Source: Chitinophagaceae bacterium
GTDB taxonomy: Bacteria; Bacteroidota; Bacteroidia; Cytophagales; Cytophagaceae
Reading direction: 5' to 3'
NCBI GenBank assembly: GCA_028288405.1
Contig: JAQBNS010000025.1
Coordinates: 1 to 64,000 of the forward strand
DNA: 64,000 nt
Positions 45,802 to 53,565 of this stretch are shown here, piece after piece. Within the stretch, counting starts at the first letter, position 1, and each line of letters begins with the position of its first letter. The notes beneath the pieces are model-generated. The model did not search any database. It saw only the letters and a list, made by a program, of their open reading frames with translations, and was not told the DNA's origin. Position numbers and translations under genes: made by a program.

Positions 45802-48800
45802 TTATTTATATAACCAAACGCGCATCAAAGAGAGCAGTTGTTCAATGTTTACAGGTTTCGATACATAATCTGACATACCAACCTCCAGGCACCTTTCGCG
45901 ATCACCTTTCATCGCTTTAGCCGTCAGTGCGATGATCGGTATTTTACTGAACTTGGTCATGTTCCGGATTTCTTTGGTGGCTTCATAACCATCCATTTCA
46001 GGCATCATGACATCCATGAGTATCATGTCGATAGCAGGATTATCACTCAATATTTTTAATGCTGCTTTTCCATTTTCGGCAGTAATGCAGTTCATTCCTT
46101 CTTCTTCTAATACATTGGTAAGAGAATATATATTACGGATATCGTCATCTACCACAAGTATTTTTTTACCGATTAGTATTTCATCTGTTTTGTGCAGCTT
46201 GCGAATGATGTTTTGTTTTTCTTTGGGCAAATGAGATTCTACCCGGTGAAGAAACAGACTGGTCTCGTCTAAAAGACGTTCTTGTGAATCCGCGGTTTTA
46301 AGCACTACAGCATTGGCTAACTTATTCAACCGGTTATTTTCTTCTTTGCTTAGATCTCTTCCGGTATACACAACAACCGGTGTTTTATTCAACCGGCTAT
46401 CTGCCTTTAGTTTCTCCAGTAACTCGAAGCCAGACATGTCGGGTAGACCAAGGTCCACAATGACACAATCATAATGATCATTCAACATCATTTCATAAGC
46501 TTCATTTCCTGAATAAGCAGAGAAACATTTCACATCACCGTTTCCAATCAGTTCACGAATAGCTTTGTTCTGAGTTTCGTTATCTTCTATAATTAATAAT
46601 TTTTTTAATTTTCTATTTACAAATTCTTCGATCCTGCCAAAAGCATTTTGCAAATCGTCTTTCGCAATGGGTTTACGGATGAAATCAAAAGCCCCGAGTT
46701 CCATTCCTTCCTTTCGCTTGTCATAACCGGAAATGATCTGAACAGGCACATGTCGCAATAAAGGATCGTTTTTTAATTGTCTCAGTACTTCAGTTCCATC
46801 CATTACAGGAAGTTTCATATCCAGAATAATGGCGTCAGGAACGTAATGCCTTGCAAAGCTTAGACCTGTGTTGCCTTGCATCGCTACAATTCCTTTATAG
46901 TGGCGTTCTCTTACAAAGCTGAGTAAATGCAATGCAAATGTTTTGTCATCCTCCATGATAAGAACCACTTTATCATTTTTTTGAATGGTATCGCGGTCAT
47001 CGTTAATCTCTCCATCGACAACTTCAAACTTATTAAGTTCACTTAAAGGTTCTATTTTCCTTTCTCTTACTTCCACTTGCTTTTCTGCCGGAGCCATAAT
47101 GGAAGCGTCAAAAGCAAGAGGTAAGTATAATGTAAAAGTACTGCCTTCACCTTCTTTACTCTCCAGGTGAATTTCTCCACCGAGTGCGTTAGCGAGCTCT
47201 ACACTGATGGAAAGCCCAAGTCCGGTACCTCCGTATTTTCTTTTGGTAGAACCGTCAGCTTGTTGGAATGCTTCAAAAATTACACTTAGTTTATTTTCGG
47301 GAATACCAATACCGGTATCTGTCACGGAAATAGCTACAATATCCTGACGGCTCTGAAGTTTGTTGTTTTTGAATTTAACCTTGGAACCTGCTTTGTCGAC
47401 AAGCATTTTTACAGAGCCTCCATTGTTGGTGAATTTGAAGGCATTCGAAAGCAGGTTTCGTATAATTTGTTCCAACCGTTGCTTATCTGTAAGGATAAAA
47501 TCACCCAGAGTCTTTTGATTGTATTGAATCGTAAAATCAATGGATTTGTTTTTAGCTATTTCAGAAAACATGGAACTGATTTGGCCATTGATTTCTTCAA
47601 AAGGAGTTTTAGCAATTTCAAGTTCCATTTTACCTGATTCCACTTTTGAAAGATCAAGGATTTCATTGATGAGATTAAGAAGATCCGCGCCGGAATTGTA
47701 AATGTTTTTTGAGAATTCTACTTCTTTGTCACCAAGGACTTTGCTTTTATTTTCGGAAAGTAGCTGGGCAAGAATTAAAATGCTGTTGAGAGGAGTACGT
47801 AGTTCATGCGACATATTAGCAAGGAATTCCGACTTGTATTTACTGCTCACCTCCAGTTCACGAACTTTATTTTCTACATCTATTTTGGCATCTTCCAGTT
47901 TTTCTTTTTGATCTTCCAGAAGATTTGCTTTTTCTTCCAGTTCTTCATTCGTTTGCTGCAATTCTTCTTGCTGTGCTTTTAATTCCGCTTCTGATCTTTC
48001 CAGCAATTGAGATTTTTCCTGTAATTCTTCATTGGATTGTTTTAGTTCTTCCTGCTGTGTTTCCAGTTCTTCTGCCTGACGTTGTGTCTCTTCCAGCAAC
48101 TCTTGCATTTTTGTTCGTGACTGAGCGGCGCTAATCACTATGGCGATGTTCTCGCTTATTCTATTAATGAATTCCAGTTCCAGTTCAGTTAAAGTTCTGG
48201 AGAAGCCCATTTCTATTACACCTTTTAGGGAATTATCCTGAAGCAAAGGCACCACTATAAGATTGGTAGGTACGATGTTTCCTAAACCGGAATTGATCTT
48301 GATATAATCATCAGGCAGTTCTGTAAAGACAATAGACTTCTTCTCACGGGCAGCCTGTCCCACTAAGCCTTCTCCGAGTTGAATGGTAACATTATTATGT
48401 TTGCGAAAGTGAAAGGCATAGCTGCCTGCTTGTTGAAGTACTCCATTATCAAATAGATAAACGACACCAATTTGTGCCTTTAGATAATTGCAAATTTGAT
48501 CAACAATAGTTTGAGCCAATGCCCTCTCTTCCCATTCACCTCTTGTTTTTTCGTTGAGTTCAAAGTTGCCGGATAGGAGCCAGTTAATATTGGCACTTTC
48601 CTGTTCGGCTTTTTTTAATGCATTGAGATTAGTAATGATGATGATGTATACACAGATGAGTAGTACAGCGATCACCAAAAGCAGCAGCATAAAAATGGTA
48701 GTGAAGTTTCGGGCATCTTCTTCACTGGACTGTTTCCGTTCTTCCAGAAGGGCGGTTTCTGTAGCTTTACATTTGCTTATCAGTCTTCGTATTTCATCCT

Positions 48801-49245
48801 CGATTTGTTTGCCTTTACCGGAAACAGTGAGTGCTCTCGCTTTCTCAAAATCGATTTTCCGTAAGTTAATGCACTCGTCAAGATGTCGGGTCAATTGATC
48901 GGTGAGTTTGCGTAAGGATTCTATATTCTTTTGTTGAGTGGGATTATCTTCAGTGAGCGCTTGCACCTTGTCGAGATGCTCTGTAATACGCTCTTTAGAA
49001 TTCTCATAGGGTTTTAGAAAAGAGTCATTACCTGTAATAATAAAACCGCGTGTACCTGTTTCTGCATCTACGGTGACGGTTAGCACTTGATCGAACTCGT
49101 ACAACACTTCGTGTGTATGATTCACCCATTGGTTTGTTTCAATGAATTTTTCACTATTTCTGAAAGAAAAAATAGCGACAGCAATTAAAATCACCGTGCA
49201 GGATATAAATCCAATAAGTATTTTTCGGCCTAAAGTCATTTTCAT
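45802..49245 (-). CDS. CHASE3-GAF hybrid histidine kinase with three receivers
   Basis: An 1147-residue inner-membrane sensor. A TM helix at ~8-28, a CHASE3 periplasmic domain (~30-175, FDQVLTVTVDAETGTRGFIITG), a second TM helix at ~180-205, a GAF domain (~230-375), then a long Glu/Gln-rich coiled coil (~380-470). HisKA with H-box EFLANMSHELRTPLNSIL, HATPase_c (NLLSNAFKFTNNGG, DTGIGIP, GTGLGLSI), then three receivers (~750-870, ~880-1000, ~1030-1147), each with a phosphoacceptor Asp (LDMKLPVMDG, VDLGLPDMSG, MDVMMPEMDG). It heads the operon with REC, CheR, CheB and REC-PAS-kinase. A 31-bp element shared with another signalling gene lies 70 bp upstream. Confidence 0.92.
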   Translation of the reverse strand: MKMTLGRKILIGFISCTVILIAVAIFSFRNSEKFIETNQWVNHTHEVLYEFDQVLTVTVDAETGTRGFIITGNDSFLKPYENSKERITEHLDKVQALTEDNPTQQKNIESLRKLTDQLTRHLDECINLRKIDFEKARALTVSGKGKQIEDEIRRLISKCKATETALLEERKQSSEEDARNFTTIFMLLLLVIAVLLICVYIIIITNLNALKKAEQESANINWLLSGNFELNEKTRGEWEERALAQTIVDQICNYLKAQIGVVYLFDNGVLQQAGSYAFHFRKHNNVTIQLGEGLVGQAAREKKSIVFTELPDDYIKINSGLGNIVPTNLIVVPLLQDNSLKGVIEMGFSRTLTELELEFINRISENIAIVISAAQSRTKMQELLEETQRQAEELETQQEELKQSNEELQEKSQLLERSEAELKAQQEELQQTNEELEEKANLLEDQKEKLEDAKIDVENKVRELEVSSKYKSEFLANMSHELRTPLNSILILAQLLSENKSKVLGDKEVEFSKNIYNSGADLLNLINEILDLSKVESGKMELEIAKTPFEEINGQISSMFSEIAKNKSIDFTIQYNQKTLGDFILTDKQRLEQIIRNLLSNAFKFTNNGGSVKMLVDKAGSKVKFKNNKLQSRQDIVAISVTDTGIGIPENKLSVIFEAFQQADGSTKRKYGGTGLGLSISVELANALGGEIHLESKEGEGSTFTLYLPLAFDASIMAPAEKQVEVRERKIEPLSELNKFEVVDGEINDDRDTIQKNDKVVLIMEDDKTFALHLLSFVRERHYKGIVAMQGNTGLSFARHYVPDAIILDMKLPVMDGTEVLRQLKNDPLLRHVPVQIISGYDKRKEGMELGAFDFIRKPIAKDDLQNAFGRIEEFVNRKLKKLLIIEDNETQNKAIRELIGNGDVKCFSAYSGNEAYEMMLNDHYDCVIVDLGLPDMSGFELLEKLKADSRLNKTPVVVYTGRDLSKEENNRLNKLANAVVLKTADSQERLLDETSLFLHRVESHLPKEKQNIIRKLHKTDEILIGKKILVVDDDIRNIYSLTNVLEEEGMNCITAENGKAALKILSDNPAIDMILMDVMMPEMDGYEATKEIRNMTKFSKIPIIALTAKAMKGDRERCLEVGMSDYVSKPVNIEQLLSLMRVWLYK

Positions 49246-49589: not shown

Positions 49590-50633
49590 TTATTGGACGA
49601 TTTCAAAATCCACATGAAAGTGGTCATCATGCGCCTGATTAAGCATAGGCGTGAGTGTATGAGCAAAACGGATGTGTCTATCTTGTAGTTTTTTTCCGGA
49701 AGGCGTTGCAAATAGAAAGGGCTTCAGCGCTGTTTTTAAAATGACAATTCTTATGCGTACACCATTTTTCCTACAAGCATCGTCCAGCGCCAGCAGGAAG
49801 CGTGCGTTGGTTTCAAAATCCAGTTGTGTATCGTCAGCATAGCGATTGATCGGCTTGCTCTTGTTGACTTTCCCTTTTTCGTCTGTGTCTAAGCCATAAC
49901 CGTAAGCATTAAGCAGTCCAACCGGATCATAAGGTTCATTGTTTTTTTTGTAGTTCAACAGCAGGTCCACACTCAATCCGTTTTGGTGCGTGCGGTGATT
50001 GAAAATGTAAGGACCACCTCTTCTCATCGAACCTTCACCGGTATAGAATGTAATGCCGGGGCATGTGGTTTCACAAATCATATACGCATCAATCAGTGAT
50101 TGTTTTACTTTTTCATGTACAAAACAATTGCCTTTCAAATAACTGAGAAAGTTGAAGTATTGAAAATTGTTTCCCCGAAACAGCATGCGTCTGCCGTGTT
50201 GTAAACTTCCGTTACCGGAAGTGCCTATACTGCGGCTGGGTTCATTACTGTCCAGCGCACACAATAGATTGGGGTTGATGCGCAGGATAATGAATACCAA
50301 TATTATCCCTCCGAAAATCCAGCGGTATATTTTTCTTTGTTTAAAAAATAAATGAATCTGCTTCAGGACTACGATCAGCAGCCAGTAGTGTAAAAAAACG
50401 AAAGGGATGAAATAATAGCTGTTGACAAAATGAACAGACAACAGATCCGATAAAGGCCAGGTGAGCAACGCAGACATTTTACCTGCTTTTATTCCAATGG
50501 CCTCCTCGTCGTAGATGATGTGTTGGCTGGTCAGGTAAAGCGGAAGGAGTTTAGTGAGGAGTACAAAAAGAAAAGTCAGTATACCGGCTATCAACAATTG
50601 ACTGCGCTGAATAAAAAGGGATTTGAAATTCAT
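49590..50633 (-). CDS. Membrane-anchored MepA-like (LAS/M74) peptidase
   Basis: A 347-residue protein. The first ~120 residues hold three hydrophobic helices. The rest resembles penicillin-insensitive murein endopeptidase MepA: GNGSLQHGRRML start, HRTHQNGLSVDLLL (zinc His and Asp, HxxxxxxxD), and AHDDHFHVDFEI (HxH). Such LAS-family enzymes cut peptide bridges in peptidoglycan. Normal MepA is a soluble periplasmic protein with no membrane domain, so the N-terminal fusion is unusual. The stand-alone gene is not tightly linked to the neighbours. Confidence 0.75.
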   Translation of the reverse strand: MNFKSLFIQRSQLLIAGILTFLFVLLTKLLPLYLTSQHIIYDEEAIGIKAGKMSALLTWPLSDLLSVHFVNSYYFIPFVFLHYWLLIVVLKQIHLFFKQRKIYRWIFGGIILVFIILRINPNLLCALDSNEPSRSIGTSGNGSLQHGRRMLFRGNNFQYFNFLSYLKGNCFVHEKVKQSLIDAYMICETTCPGITFYTGEGSMRRGGPYIFNHRTHQNGLSVDLLLNYKKNNEPYDPVGLLNAYGYGLDTDEKGKVNKSKPINRYADDTQLDFETNARFLLALDDACRKNGVRIRIVILKTALKPFLFATPSGKKLQDRHIRFAHTLTPMLNQAHDDHFHVDFEIVQ

Positions 50634-50726: not shown

Positions 50727-52151
50727 TTAATAGTCATTGCCTGACAACCAAGGCAAAGACTTCTTGTTTTGTTTCTTCCTTTTTGCTGCATAGGAAAGCA
50801 ACAGCTTTTCAAAAAACGATTCAATCGGTTTCAGCAGTAAAGCGAGTAACAGTTTGGTCGATAAGTTTAACCATATATTGGTAGAATAAGAATCTACAAT
50901 AGGATCGAGAAAACCTTCTGAGAGCAGAAACAAGGCAATCGCAACAAGGAGCGTCAAGGAAGTCGCGAACCTACTGATGCGTACTCGTGTGAGTTCATCA
51001 ATCGTTTCTGTCAATTCTTTATTGGCGCTATCGAGTTCGTCGTTGGCATTTTTTAATTCCACGTTCCTCAAGCGTTCAATCTCCGCGTCTTTGGCTGCTG
51101 ATTCCAGTTGGTTGATGACATGGATGTTCTTAATGCGGGCAGCAGTTTCCGCATTGTAGATTTCTTCTCTCAGCGCATGATACTTTTCCAGGTGTGCAAA
51201 AGCTTCTGTTGCATTGTTTTCTAATCGTGCTATTTCGCAAAGCTCTTTGTGTACATCGGCCATGATGCCTTTGTAATCTTTGCTTTCGGCAAGGACAAAA
51301 GCTTCTTTTAATATTCTTTTGGCTTCCACTATGCGATGGATCTTTTGGTAACAAGTACCAATGTCAATCATCGTAACGACCTGTACATACGTATGCTTGA
51401 GCAGTAAAGCCGTCTCTAACAGTTTGTCATAATACTGCAGGGACATTTCGTATTGCTGTTGCTTCTCGTGCCATTTGCCAATACGACTGTAGGTGATATT
51501 ATTACCCAAATCACCATTCAGTGCGGGGATTGTTAAACTTTCCCGGAAGCATTTTATGGAGTGGTCAAAGTCATTCGCATTCAGGTAGATCATGCCTGTT
51601 ACCATGAGCGTATAGCGTTCCTGCTCCTTGTCGTTGAGTTCGCGGGCATAGGCAAGACTTTGGGAGGCGTACTGTATAGCGGTGGACAGGTCTTTGAAAT
51701 AAGAATAAATTCTCGCCATGTTGATCAGCGTTTTGGCTTCCTGTGCTTTGTCGCTGAATGTGGTACTGATCTTTTGACTTTCTAAAAAGAGATCCAGCGC
51801 TTTGTCGTAATTGCTGAGTCTACTGTGTGTGATGCCTAAGATGTACAAAGGAAAACTAATTTCCTTTTGCGCTCCGATTTTTTTATAAAAAGAAATAGCT
51901 TGGTAAGAATATTCGAAAGCGTGTTCAATGTCGGAGAGCTGCAGTTTGTGAAAACCAAGAATGGCTAAACTGTCTGCCAGTCCTTTATCGTAGGAGAGCG
52001 CCAACGCTTTTTCATGTGCTTCTTGCGCCAGGAGCGCAGATTTCTTGGCATCGGTATGATGCATTTCCTGCGCTGATTGATTGAGCAGATCAATTTTATG
52101 TTCCTGTTCGTTGACCGTAAATTGTTCTTCTTTCATAGGAAACAAAACCAT
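50727..52151 (-). CDS. TPR protein with coiled coil and C-terminal membrane domain shared with 52579-53565
   Basis: A 474-residue protein. About seven TPR-like helix pairs (~20-330, e.g. ADSLAILGFHKLQLSDIEHA and ITHSRLSNYDKALDLFLESQ), then a long coiled coil (~335-395, ELKNANDELDSANKEL), then two hydrophobic helices at ~397-455: VAIALFLLSEGFLDPIVDS and LLLKPIESFFEKLLLS. These last segments are strikingly like the C-terminus of the divergently transcribed REC-PAS gene. No kinase or cyclase domain is present. It may tether or sense through the membrane domain and bind partners by TPR. Start could also be the ATG at 52136. Confidence 0.8.
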   Translation of the reverse strand: MVLFPMKEEQFTVNEQEHKIDLLNQSAQEMHHTDAKKSALLAQEAHEKALALSYDKGLADSLAILGFHKLQLSDIEHAFEYSYQAISFYKKIGAQKEISFPLYILGITHSRLSNYDKALDLFLESQKISTTFSDKAQEAKTLINMARIYSYFKDLSTAIQYASQSLAYARELNDKEQERYTLMVTGMIYLNANDFDHSIKCFRESLTIPALNGDLGNNITYSRIGKWHEKQQQYEMSLQYYDKLLETALLLKHTYVQVVTMIDIGTCYQKIHRIVEAKRILKEAFVLAESKDYKGIMADVHKELCEIARLENNATEAFAHLEKYHALREEIYNAETAARIKNIHVINQLESAAKDAEIERLRNVELKNANDELDSANKELTETIDELTRVRISRFATSLTLLVAIALFLLSEGFLDPIVDSYSTNIWLNLSTKLLLALLLKPIESFFEKLLLSYAAKRKKQNKKSLPWLSGNDY

Positions 52152-52578
52152 TCAAAAAGCAGCTGGTCTATGATGGATAGTTTAGAGAGAAGGTACAGTA
52201 TTTTTTAGATTATCCCGAATTCGACCGGCTGTTATTGTATTAGAGATTATGGCGCAGCACGTGATCCGAAATAGCCTTTTTAGGAAGACCCTTCACGTAT
52301 TGTGTTAGCGTTTTTTATTCCCTCTACTCCTGACCAATACCACTATGCAATACTGAAAATCGATCTGTTCACTATTTTCTTAAGGGAAATGGATAACCAG
52401 AATGAAGGCCTGCGTGTGACTATTGGTTTATGGCTAAGGTTCTTGAGTACTCTATATTAGGTATTACAAATAAGCCTTTTTACTTATTTTTGCCATTAAA
52501 CTTTGTTTTGTGTCGATTAAATGTTAAATATATTAGACTAATTTACTCTTTTCTGTTTTTATTAAACCAAAGTTGGAT
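52152..52578. other. Intergenic between the divergent TPR and REC-PAS genes
   Basis: About 425 bp, AT-rich, no gene recognised. It contains the 31-bp element at 52512-52542 near the REC-PAS start. It must hold promoters in both directions. Confidence 0.45.
52512..52542. promoter_or_regulatory. 31-bp element shared with 49315-49345
   Basis: The same 31-base layout, beginning GTCGATTAAATG and ending GACTAAT, ends 36 bp upstream of the REC-PAS start. Only four positions differ from the element upstream of the hybrid kinase operon. Confidence 0.5.
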
Positions 52579-53565
52579 ATGAAATATAATGTTTTAGTTG
52601 TTGACGATAATGAAGAAGATATTTTCTTTTTTAAAAGAGCGCTCTCGGCAACCGCATTAGAAGTTGATTTAAGTAGTACTTATGATGGCTCAAAAGCCAT
52701 TGAGCTTGTTACCAAGGAACCTTATGATTGTATTTTTCTGGATTATAATATGCCGGGTTACGATGGATTGGAGGTTCTTAAAAAAATAAGGCAAACCAAT
52801 TCGTATACACCGGTTGTCATGCTTACAGGGCAGAAAGATCAGCAAATGATCATTAAACTCATGCAAGAAGGAGCAAATGACTATTTGTCAAAGGATAGTT
52901 TATCATCAGAATCCCTTCGCATCAGCCTTGAAAATGCGAGAAGAATTTATCTCATGAAGCAAGAAAAATACCAGGCAGAAAAAGCACTTAAAAATAGCGA
53001 AGCGAGGCTTGCCGAGGCTCAGCGTATAGGTCATATAGGAAATTGGGAGTTTGATACCCGGACAAAATCTTTCGTACTTTCCGATGAGGCTATGCGCATT
53101 TCAGAATCTTACCATGATAATAAACGATTGTTAAATTTTTGCAGGAAAATTCATTATAAAGATTTTCATTTGTTTAAAGAAACGATCAAGAACCTGGAGG
53201 TTAAGCAAACATTTGACATTACTTTTCGGTACTTACGATGGGCTAAAAATGAAAATTGCATAAATCTTAAAGGCACCATGGTATCGGAAAATAAAATAAT
53301 TGGAACGATACAGGATGTCACTAAATTAAAGAGCGCATTATTGGAAGCACAAAAAGCGTCTATCAAAACGAAGGCAACGAAGATCGTGTTGGCTATTGCT
53401 ATAGTTATATTTCTTTTATCAGAAGCGGTGTTGGATCCGGTCATTGATTCCCTTACCGCAAGCTTAATCATCTCGCTGTCTTTCAAAGGCAGTATAGCGG
53501 TAGCGCTAAAACCAATTGAGTCATTACTGGAGCGAATTATGATGAGTAGGGTATCGCTTGGCTAG
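52579..53565 (+). CDS. REC-PAS protein with the shared C-terminal membrane domain
   Basis: A 328-residue protein. Residues 1-120: receiver domain (VLVVDDNEEDIF, IFLDYNMPGYDG with the Asp, MLTGQKD). Residues ~135-245: a PAS-like fold (GHIGNWEFDTRTKSFVLS, IIGTIQDVTKLK). Then a short helix and a membrane domain ~262-325 (IAIVIFLLSEAVLDPVIDS, ALKPIESLLERIMMS). There is no kinase or DNA-binding output. 24 of 51 residues equal the C-terminus of the divergently transcribed TPR protein. A soluble receiver with a C-terminal membrane hairpin is rare. Start is the ATG at 52579 (a TTG two codons earlier is less likely). Confidence 0.82.
   Translation: MKYNVLVVDDNEEDIFFFKRALSATALEVDLSSTYDGSKAIELVTKEPYDCIFLDYNMPGYDGLEVLKKIRQTNSYTPVVMLTGQKDQQMIIKLMQEGANDYLSKDSLSSESLRISLENARRIYLMKQEKYQAEKALKNSEARLAEAQRIGHIGNWEFDTRTKSFVLSDEAMRISESYHDNKRLLNFCRKIHYKDFHLFKETIKNLEVKQTFDITFRYLRWAKNENCINLKGTMVSENKIIGTIQDVTKLKSALLEAQKASIKTKATKIVLAIAIVIFLLSEAVLDPVIDSLTASLIISLSFKGSIAVALKPIESLLERIMMSRVSLG

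Follow-up and report, generated by a model that had tools for sequence, protein, structure and literature searches.

The C-termini of two proteins encoded in a 64,000-nucleotide stretch of DNA (the window), one a TPR protein and the other a REC–PAS protein, belong to a single undescribed family of ~70-residue domains that is found across the Bacteroidota. The domain consists of two membrane helices joined by a short acidic loop that is probably periplasmic. In a large group of relatives it follows a SiaD-like stalk, and the resulting stalk and two-helix protein occupies the slot of the SiaD diguanylate cyclase in SiaABC partner-switch operons. The reading that we favor, at a probability of roughly 0.6, is that this hairpin family fills the output position of many signaling proteins and that switching in a coiled coil is passed into the membrane hairpin. 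The domain is probably a membrane output of bacterial signaling rather than a private link between the two window genes. If this is true, Bacteroidota signaling would have a new membrane output domain of general use, and a Sia output that operates without diguanylate cyclases.

The domain shared by the window proteins

The TPR and REC–PAS C-termini align over 51 residues without gaps, with 24–25 identities. The local score of this alignment is 146, compared with 29 ± 5 (maximum 60) when the same hydrophobic tail is shuffled 2000 times with its composition preserved, and BLASTP of the two tails gives 3e-15 unmasked and 3e-6 once low-complexity regions are masked and composition is corrected for. 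An earlier interpretation made from the DNA letters (the sequence-only reading) had described a gapless 51-residue match with 24 identities, the landmarks FLLSE, LDPxxDS and LKPIES in both C-termini and the positions of the two genes, all of which are borne out. It had also proposed that the two proteins have in common an unrecognized two-helix membrane module following a helical linker; the module is real and is unnamed in the libraries searched. As that reading held, Pfam finds no kinase, cyclase or DNA-binding output in either protein. Its domain assignments stand for the TPR repeats, which exceed the Pfam cut-offs (TPR_12 at 5.5e-23, and others), and for the receiver, and are weaker for the PAS domain, which falls below the Pfam cut-offs in the window protein, is weak in the L016 ortholog and shows up in the AlphaFold model as a PAS-like block. 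As in single-domain and PAS-linked response regulators, the receiver is canonical (PF00072) and all key residues are present, namely the phosphoacceptor D56, the acidic pair D10/D11, T83 and K105, but the window protein ends in a membrane hairpin where those regulators have a soluble output or none.

The AlphaFold2 model of the TPR C-terminus (37 sequences) predicts a coiled-coil helix that runs through TM1, followed by a second helix. The REC–PAS model shows the same helix plan, at residues 247–288 and 292–326, after the receiver, a signaling helix and the PAS block. The window TPR protein lacks an N-terminal hydrophobic segment and has a single KD19 peak, at residues 401–419; the REC–PAS protein has peaks at residues 269–287 and 294–312 (numbered from its TTG start), and TM2 is marginally hydrophobic in many family members. 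Lysine and arginine residues average 3.5 before TM1, 0.3 in the loop and 4.7 after TM2, a positive-inside pattern that fits a cytoplasmic location for both termini (N-in/C-in). Conserved positions include a glutamate in TM1, a lysine or asparagine in TM2 and a near-invariant (K)P(I/L)E motif at the cytoplasmic end of the domain, and conservation extends beyond hydrophobicity to a phenylalanine, an alanine and a proline present in 0.92, 0.85 and 0.99 of the sequences, respectively. A Foldseek search of the PDB with the hairpin fold gave zero significant matches (best E 2.9).

Table 1. Positions of the features discussed within the window
Feature	Position	Strand	Basis
TPR protein, 474 aa: cytoplasmic TPR array, coiled-coil linker and C-terminal two-helix membrane domain	50727..52151	-	ORF; TPR_12 etc. 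(Pfam)
TPR protein: predicted continuous helix, residues 350-422, from coiled-coil linker into TM1, with linker motif TIDELT	50886..51104	-	AlphaFold2 helix 2-74 of modeled segment, mean pLDDT 89.8
TPR protein: two-helix membrane domain, residues 388-459	50775..50990	-	Family HMM matches
TPR protein: predicted second helix, residues 426-465, TM2 and cytoplasmic amphipathic tail with KPIE motif	50757..50876	-	AlphaFold2 helix 78-117
REC–PAS protein, 328 aa	52579..53565	+	ORF
REC–PAS protein: receiver domain with D10, D11, D56, T83, K105	52591..52899	+	Response_reg 2e-26; residues read
REC–PAS protein: PAS-like domain	53035..53316	+	AlphaFold2; PAS_3 4e-5 in ortholog L016, below gathering cut-off
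REC–PAS protein: predicted continuous helix 247-288, linker and TM1	53317..53442	+	AlphaFold2
REC–PAS protein: two-helix membrane domain	53350..53559	+	Family HMM; two KD19 peaks
CHASE3–GAF hybrid histidine kinase with three receivers; candidate phosphodonor for REC–PAS	45802..49245	-	Pfam; conserved neighbor of REC–PAS in genus g3

Members and architectures of the family

Relatives were gathered by iterated searches at family, order, class and phylum level, and architectures were read from the loci and, for representatives, also from Pfam. The domain is located near the C-terminus in all 88 proteins sampled: 39 SiaD-like stalk proteins, 16 Reg_prop/Y_Y_Y sensors, 12 REC–PAS proteins, 9 periplasmic and 8 cytosolic TPR proteins, 2 FIST-adjacent coiled coils (one locus twice), 1 SiaC–stalk fusion and 1 REC–coiled coil protein. 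These are counts of sequences rather than of independent genes, a few loci having been fetched twice. The sequence-only reading had suggested an HMM search for further domain partners; TPR and REC were recovered together with Reg_prop, SiaC-linked stalk and FIST-linked forms, and GGDEF was not. That reading overlooked the main contexts of the domain, which are SiaABC operons and periplasmic Reg_prop and TPR sensors. Elsewhere in the collection, a FIST-domain sensor gene (L023:5768-7199, G008) is followed by a coiled-coil and hairpin protein in the position expected of a kinase, and some genomes (G020, G414, G454 and G695) carry the domain 9 to 12 times, for the most part in long ORFs resembling Reg_prop or TPR proteins.

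HMMs built from single groups recover the other groups and match zero non-family ORFs among the loci; one reversed decoy matched in one of four such searches, in a database small enough that the E-values are relative. A tree of the domain, which is short and leaves many other forks poorly resolved, separates two branches with support of 100/94: type I (stalk, REC–PAS and cytosolic TPR proteins) and type II (Reg_prop and periplasmic TPR proteins). In type II proteins, a separate TM helix comes just before the domain. Among the type I proteins, the linker motif TIDELT occurs in 8 of 8 cytosolic TPR and 39 of 39 SiaD-like proteins. The Reg_prop/Y_Y_Y relatives share their propeller, Y_Y_Y and TM layout with the hybrid sensors of Bacteroidota, but the hairpin replaces the histidine-kinase output.

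The domain is unnamed in the libraries searched and undescribed in the literature found. A match to a named membrane domain would have told against the sequence-only reading, and no Pfam-A or NCBIfam domain exceeds its curated cut-off over the hairpin in the window proteins or the stalk–hairpin proteins. Thirty-seven family members compared with Pfam gave zero consistent domain matches over the hairpin, and neither SLATT-type nor similar pore-forming two-TM effectors are among the Pfam matches listed for members; GGDEF is absent from every member scanned with Pfam. A search of viral contigs with the TPR protein returned zero relatives, and a scan of NCBI genome contigs gave only two loci because the degenerate pattern used was narrow.

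SiaABC operon context of the stalk relatives

SiaABC is known to control the synthesis of c-di-GMP. In 36 of 39 cases the stalk gene is the next one after SiaC, in the same orientation, with gaps of -17 to 190 (35 of them ≤124), and SiaB is upstream of SiaC in 31 of the 36; for several of the five that lack it, the gene upstream is truncated or overlapped in the locus retrieved. In two examples given family assignments, SiaC is well above its Pfam cut-off and the SiaB-family kinase is above the NCBIfam subfamily cut-off in both. The YxNTS phospho-site motif is kept in 39 of 41 SiaC proteins. In Pseudomonas aeruginosa, the NTS phospho-site region of SiaC contacts SiaD, and the SiaC contacts on SiaD include S82, D83 and Q86 (PMC8457831). 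An SDRxQ-type motif is present in the stalk of all 39 stalk proteins and of the SiaC fusion, and in 0 of the other 48 members. Two profile searches place SDRxQ on positions 83–87 of the 7e6g chain, with E-values (0.41 and 0.55) that are weak alone; these positions become 82–86 if the deposited chain carries one extra N-terminal residue. The similarity of stalk and SiaD sequences is below significance by itself, and a PDB search with a single full-length stalk sequence gave chance matches only. SiaD was missed by two short stalk profiles (A4 and A5), and the stalk–SiaD link therefore rests on the operon, the motif and its register. One fused gene (L083:2652-3626, genome G026) joins SiaC, an SDRxQ-bearing stalk and the membrane hairpin.

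As a system, the stalk arrangement amounts to a variant of SiaABCD of P. aeruginosa (PDB 7e6g; PMC8457831, PMC7647112) with a different effector. Like SiaD, the stalk proteins are encoded in a SiaB–SiaC operon, their SiaC retains the NTS phospho-site and SDRxQ falls, with the weak E-values given above, at the SiaC-contact register; unlike SiaD, they carry the two-helix membrane domain in place of GGDEF, and their host genomes mostly lack GGDEF. Of the 42 domain-bearing genomes tested, some of them incomplete, 41 lack a GGDEF gene. A stalk–hairpin protein in the SiaD slot would offer a direct, testable answer to the question of what the Sia switch controls in genomes without GGDEF. SiaC itself occurs in 138 of 390 sampled genomes of the order, about a third, and work on SiaABC in Bacteroidota was not found in the literature searched.

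The Sia context is that of the relatives, not of the window proteins, which have the hairpin without the SiaC-binding stalk. SiaC adjacency was found for 0 of 12 REC–PAS and 0 of 8 cytosolic TPR forms, and the window proteins themselves have neither a SiaC neighbor nor an SDRxQ motif. Across the sampled lineages, no gene other than the Sia genes was seen to recur beside the domain.

The source genome contains two SiaB–SiaC pairs, L106 (G000:C90:18000-31000) and L105 (G000:C97:45000-58000), one of which has an upstream SiaA-like phosphatase of GAF–PAS–SpoIIE type; the C90 copy has CheB- and CheR-like genes nearby. Here, too, SiaB–SiaC is followed by a membrane protein, but in both cases the third gene encodes an ABC-2 transporter of ~1025 aa with an N-terminal TerB domain rather than a stalk–hairpin protein. 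In a genome from another class of the phylum (L108, G891), a SpoIIE–DUF6272 fusion, SiaC and a stalk–hairpin protein precede two genes that by eye resemble those for the flagellar rod proteins FlgB and FlgC, the first of them having no Pfam match. In the loci seen from family f64 (L070, L073–L079, L081 and L082), SiaB, SiaC and the stalk–hairpin protein are followed by a gene that, by eye, is cysteine-desulfurase-like.

Output, anchor or dedicated pair

The proposal that the hairpin is an output builds on the identity of the domain, its architectures, its linkage to Sia operons, the absence of GGDEF and the predicted continuous helix. In this mechanism, an input (SiaC binding, receiver phosphorylation, TPR binding or a ligand of the periplasmic propeller) would alter the pairing of a coiled coil that we infer to be dimeric. 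Since the coiled-coil helix is predicted to continue unbroken into TM1, the switch could alter how the hairpins pack or oligomerize within the membrane, and the hairpins may then form a pore or engage a membrane target. The dimer, the topology and an active role for the hairpin are inferred. Receivers, TPR proteins and propeller sensors can all end in this one domain, which points to a common membrane output that has no name among the curated families searched. More tentatively, phospho-relay, TPR, propeller and SiaABC inputs might all converge on one type of membrane-acting hairpin, as a pore or as the regulator of a shared target, which would replace c-di-GMP as the Sia output.

The main rival to the output reading is that the hairpin is a mere membrane anchor that brings soluble sensors (TPR, REC–PAS or SiaC stalk) to partners at the inner membrane. 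Soluble cytoplasmic modules would gain a membrane location in this way, the hairpin is short and accompanied by no catalytic domain, and a receiver or TPR array is able to act by docking alone. We nonetheless consider an anchor-only role rather unlikely, because sensors with a TM helix of their own also carry the hairpin: the Reg_prop/Y_Y_Y and periplasmic TPR proteins already cross the membrane. Further, the conservation of the phenylalanine, alanine and proline positions exceeds what hydrophobicity requires, and the stalk proteins have nothing else left to serve as an output.

The sequence-only reading had held that the TPR–hairpin and REC–PAS–hairpin proteins are a dedicated unit that meets in the membrane. 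The two genes are divergent and 0.4 kb apart in the source genome, and both carry one domain family, yet we regard such a pairing as very improbable. The TPR ortholog was found in one other genome only (G006, 78% identical), which makes it the single informative genome for synteny. There, the TPR and REC–PAS orthologs are on different contigs with the partner in neither flank, and the conserved pairing that was put forward as a check is not seen. The TPR domain of the window is 83% identical to its G006 ortholog, 51–53% identical to stalk proteins and ≤40% identical to any REC–PAS domain, its neighbor included. In the domain tree, it lies inside the stalk clade (99/98 support) and the window REC–PAS domain lies outside, a result that also rules out local duplication of one tail onto the neighboring gene. 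Four copies of the domain are present in the source genome, the window TPR form and three REC–PAS forms (typical ones in the window and on C24, and a third on C102), and three genomes (G002, G003 and G007) have REC–PAS without TPR. The window TPR and REC–PAS proteins are two separate users of the module. A better candidate partner for the REC–PAS protein is the CHASE3 hybrid kinase encoded near it both in the window and in genus g3, where the homologs are 54% (L022) and 51% (L021) identical.

Least credible of all is the alternative, also raised in the sequence-only reading, that the tails are alike only as any hydrophobic helical hairpins would be, without a common origin; the segments are short and hydrophobic, and single members have weak, inconsistent matches to many Pfam membrane families, but for the window forms this is ruled out by the shuffle control, by HMM recovery across groups without matches to unrelated ORFs and by profile–profile E-values of 1e-9 to 1e-28 with conserved polar positions.

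The REC–PAS–hairpin paralog on C102 (L026:6342-7433) has a degenerate receiver that has lost the acidic pair and the threonine, and a nearby gene resembles a DNA cytosine methyltransferase. In the window, the gene next to the TPR gene (49590-50633) encodes a membrane protein that contains a domain of peptidase M74, a penicillin-insensitive murein endopeptidase.
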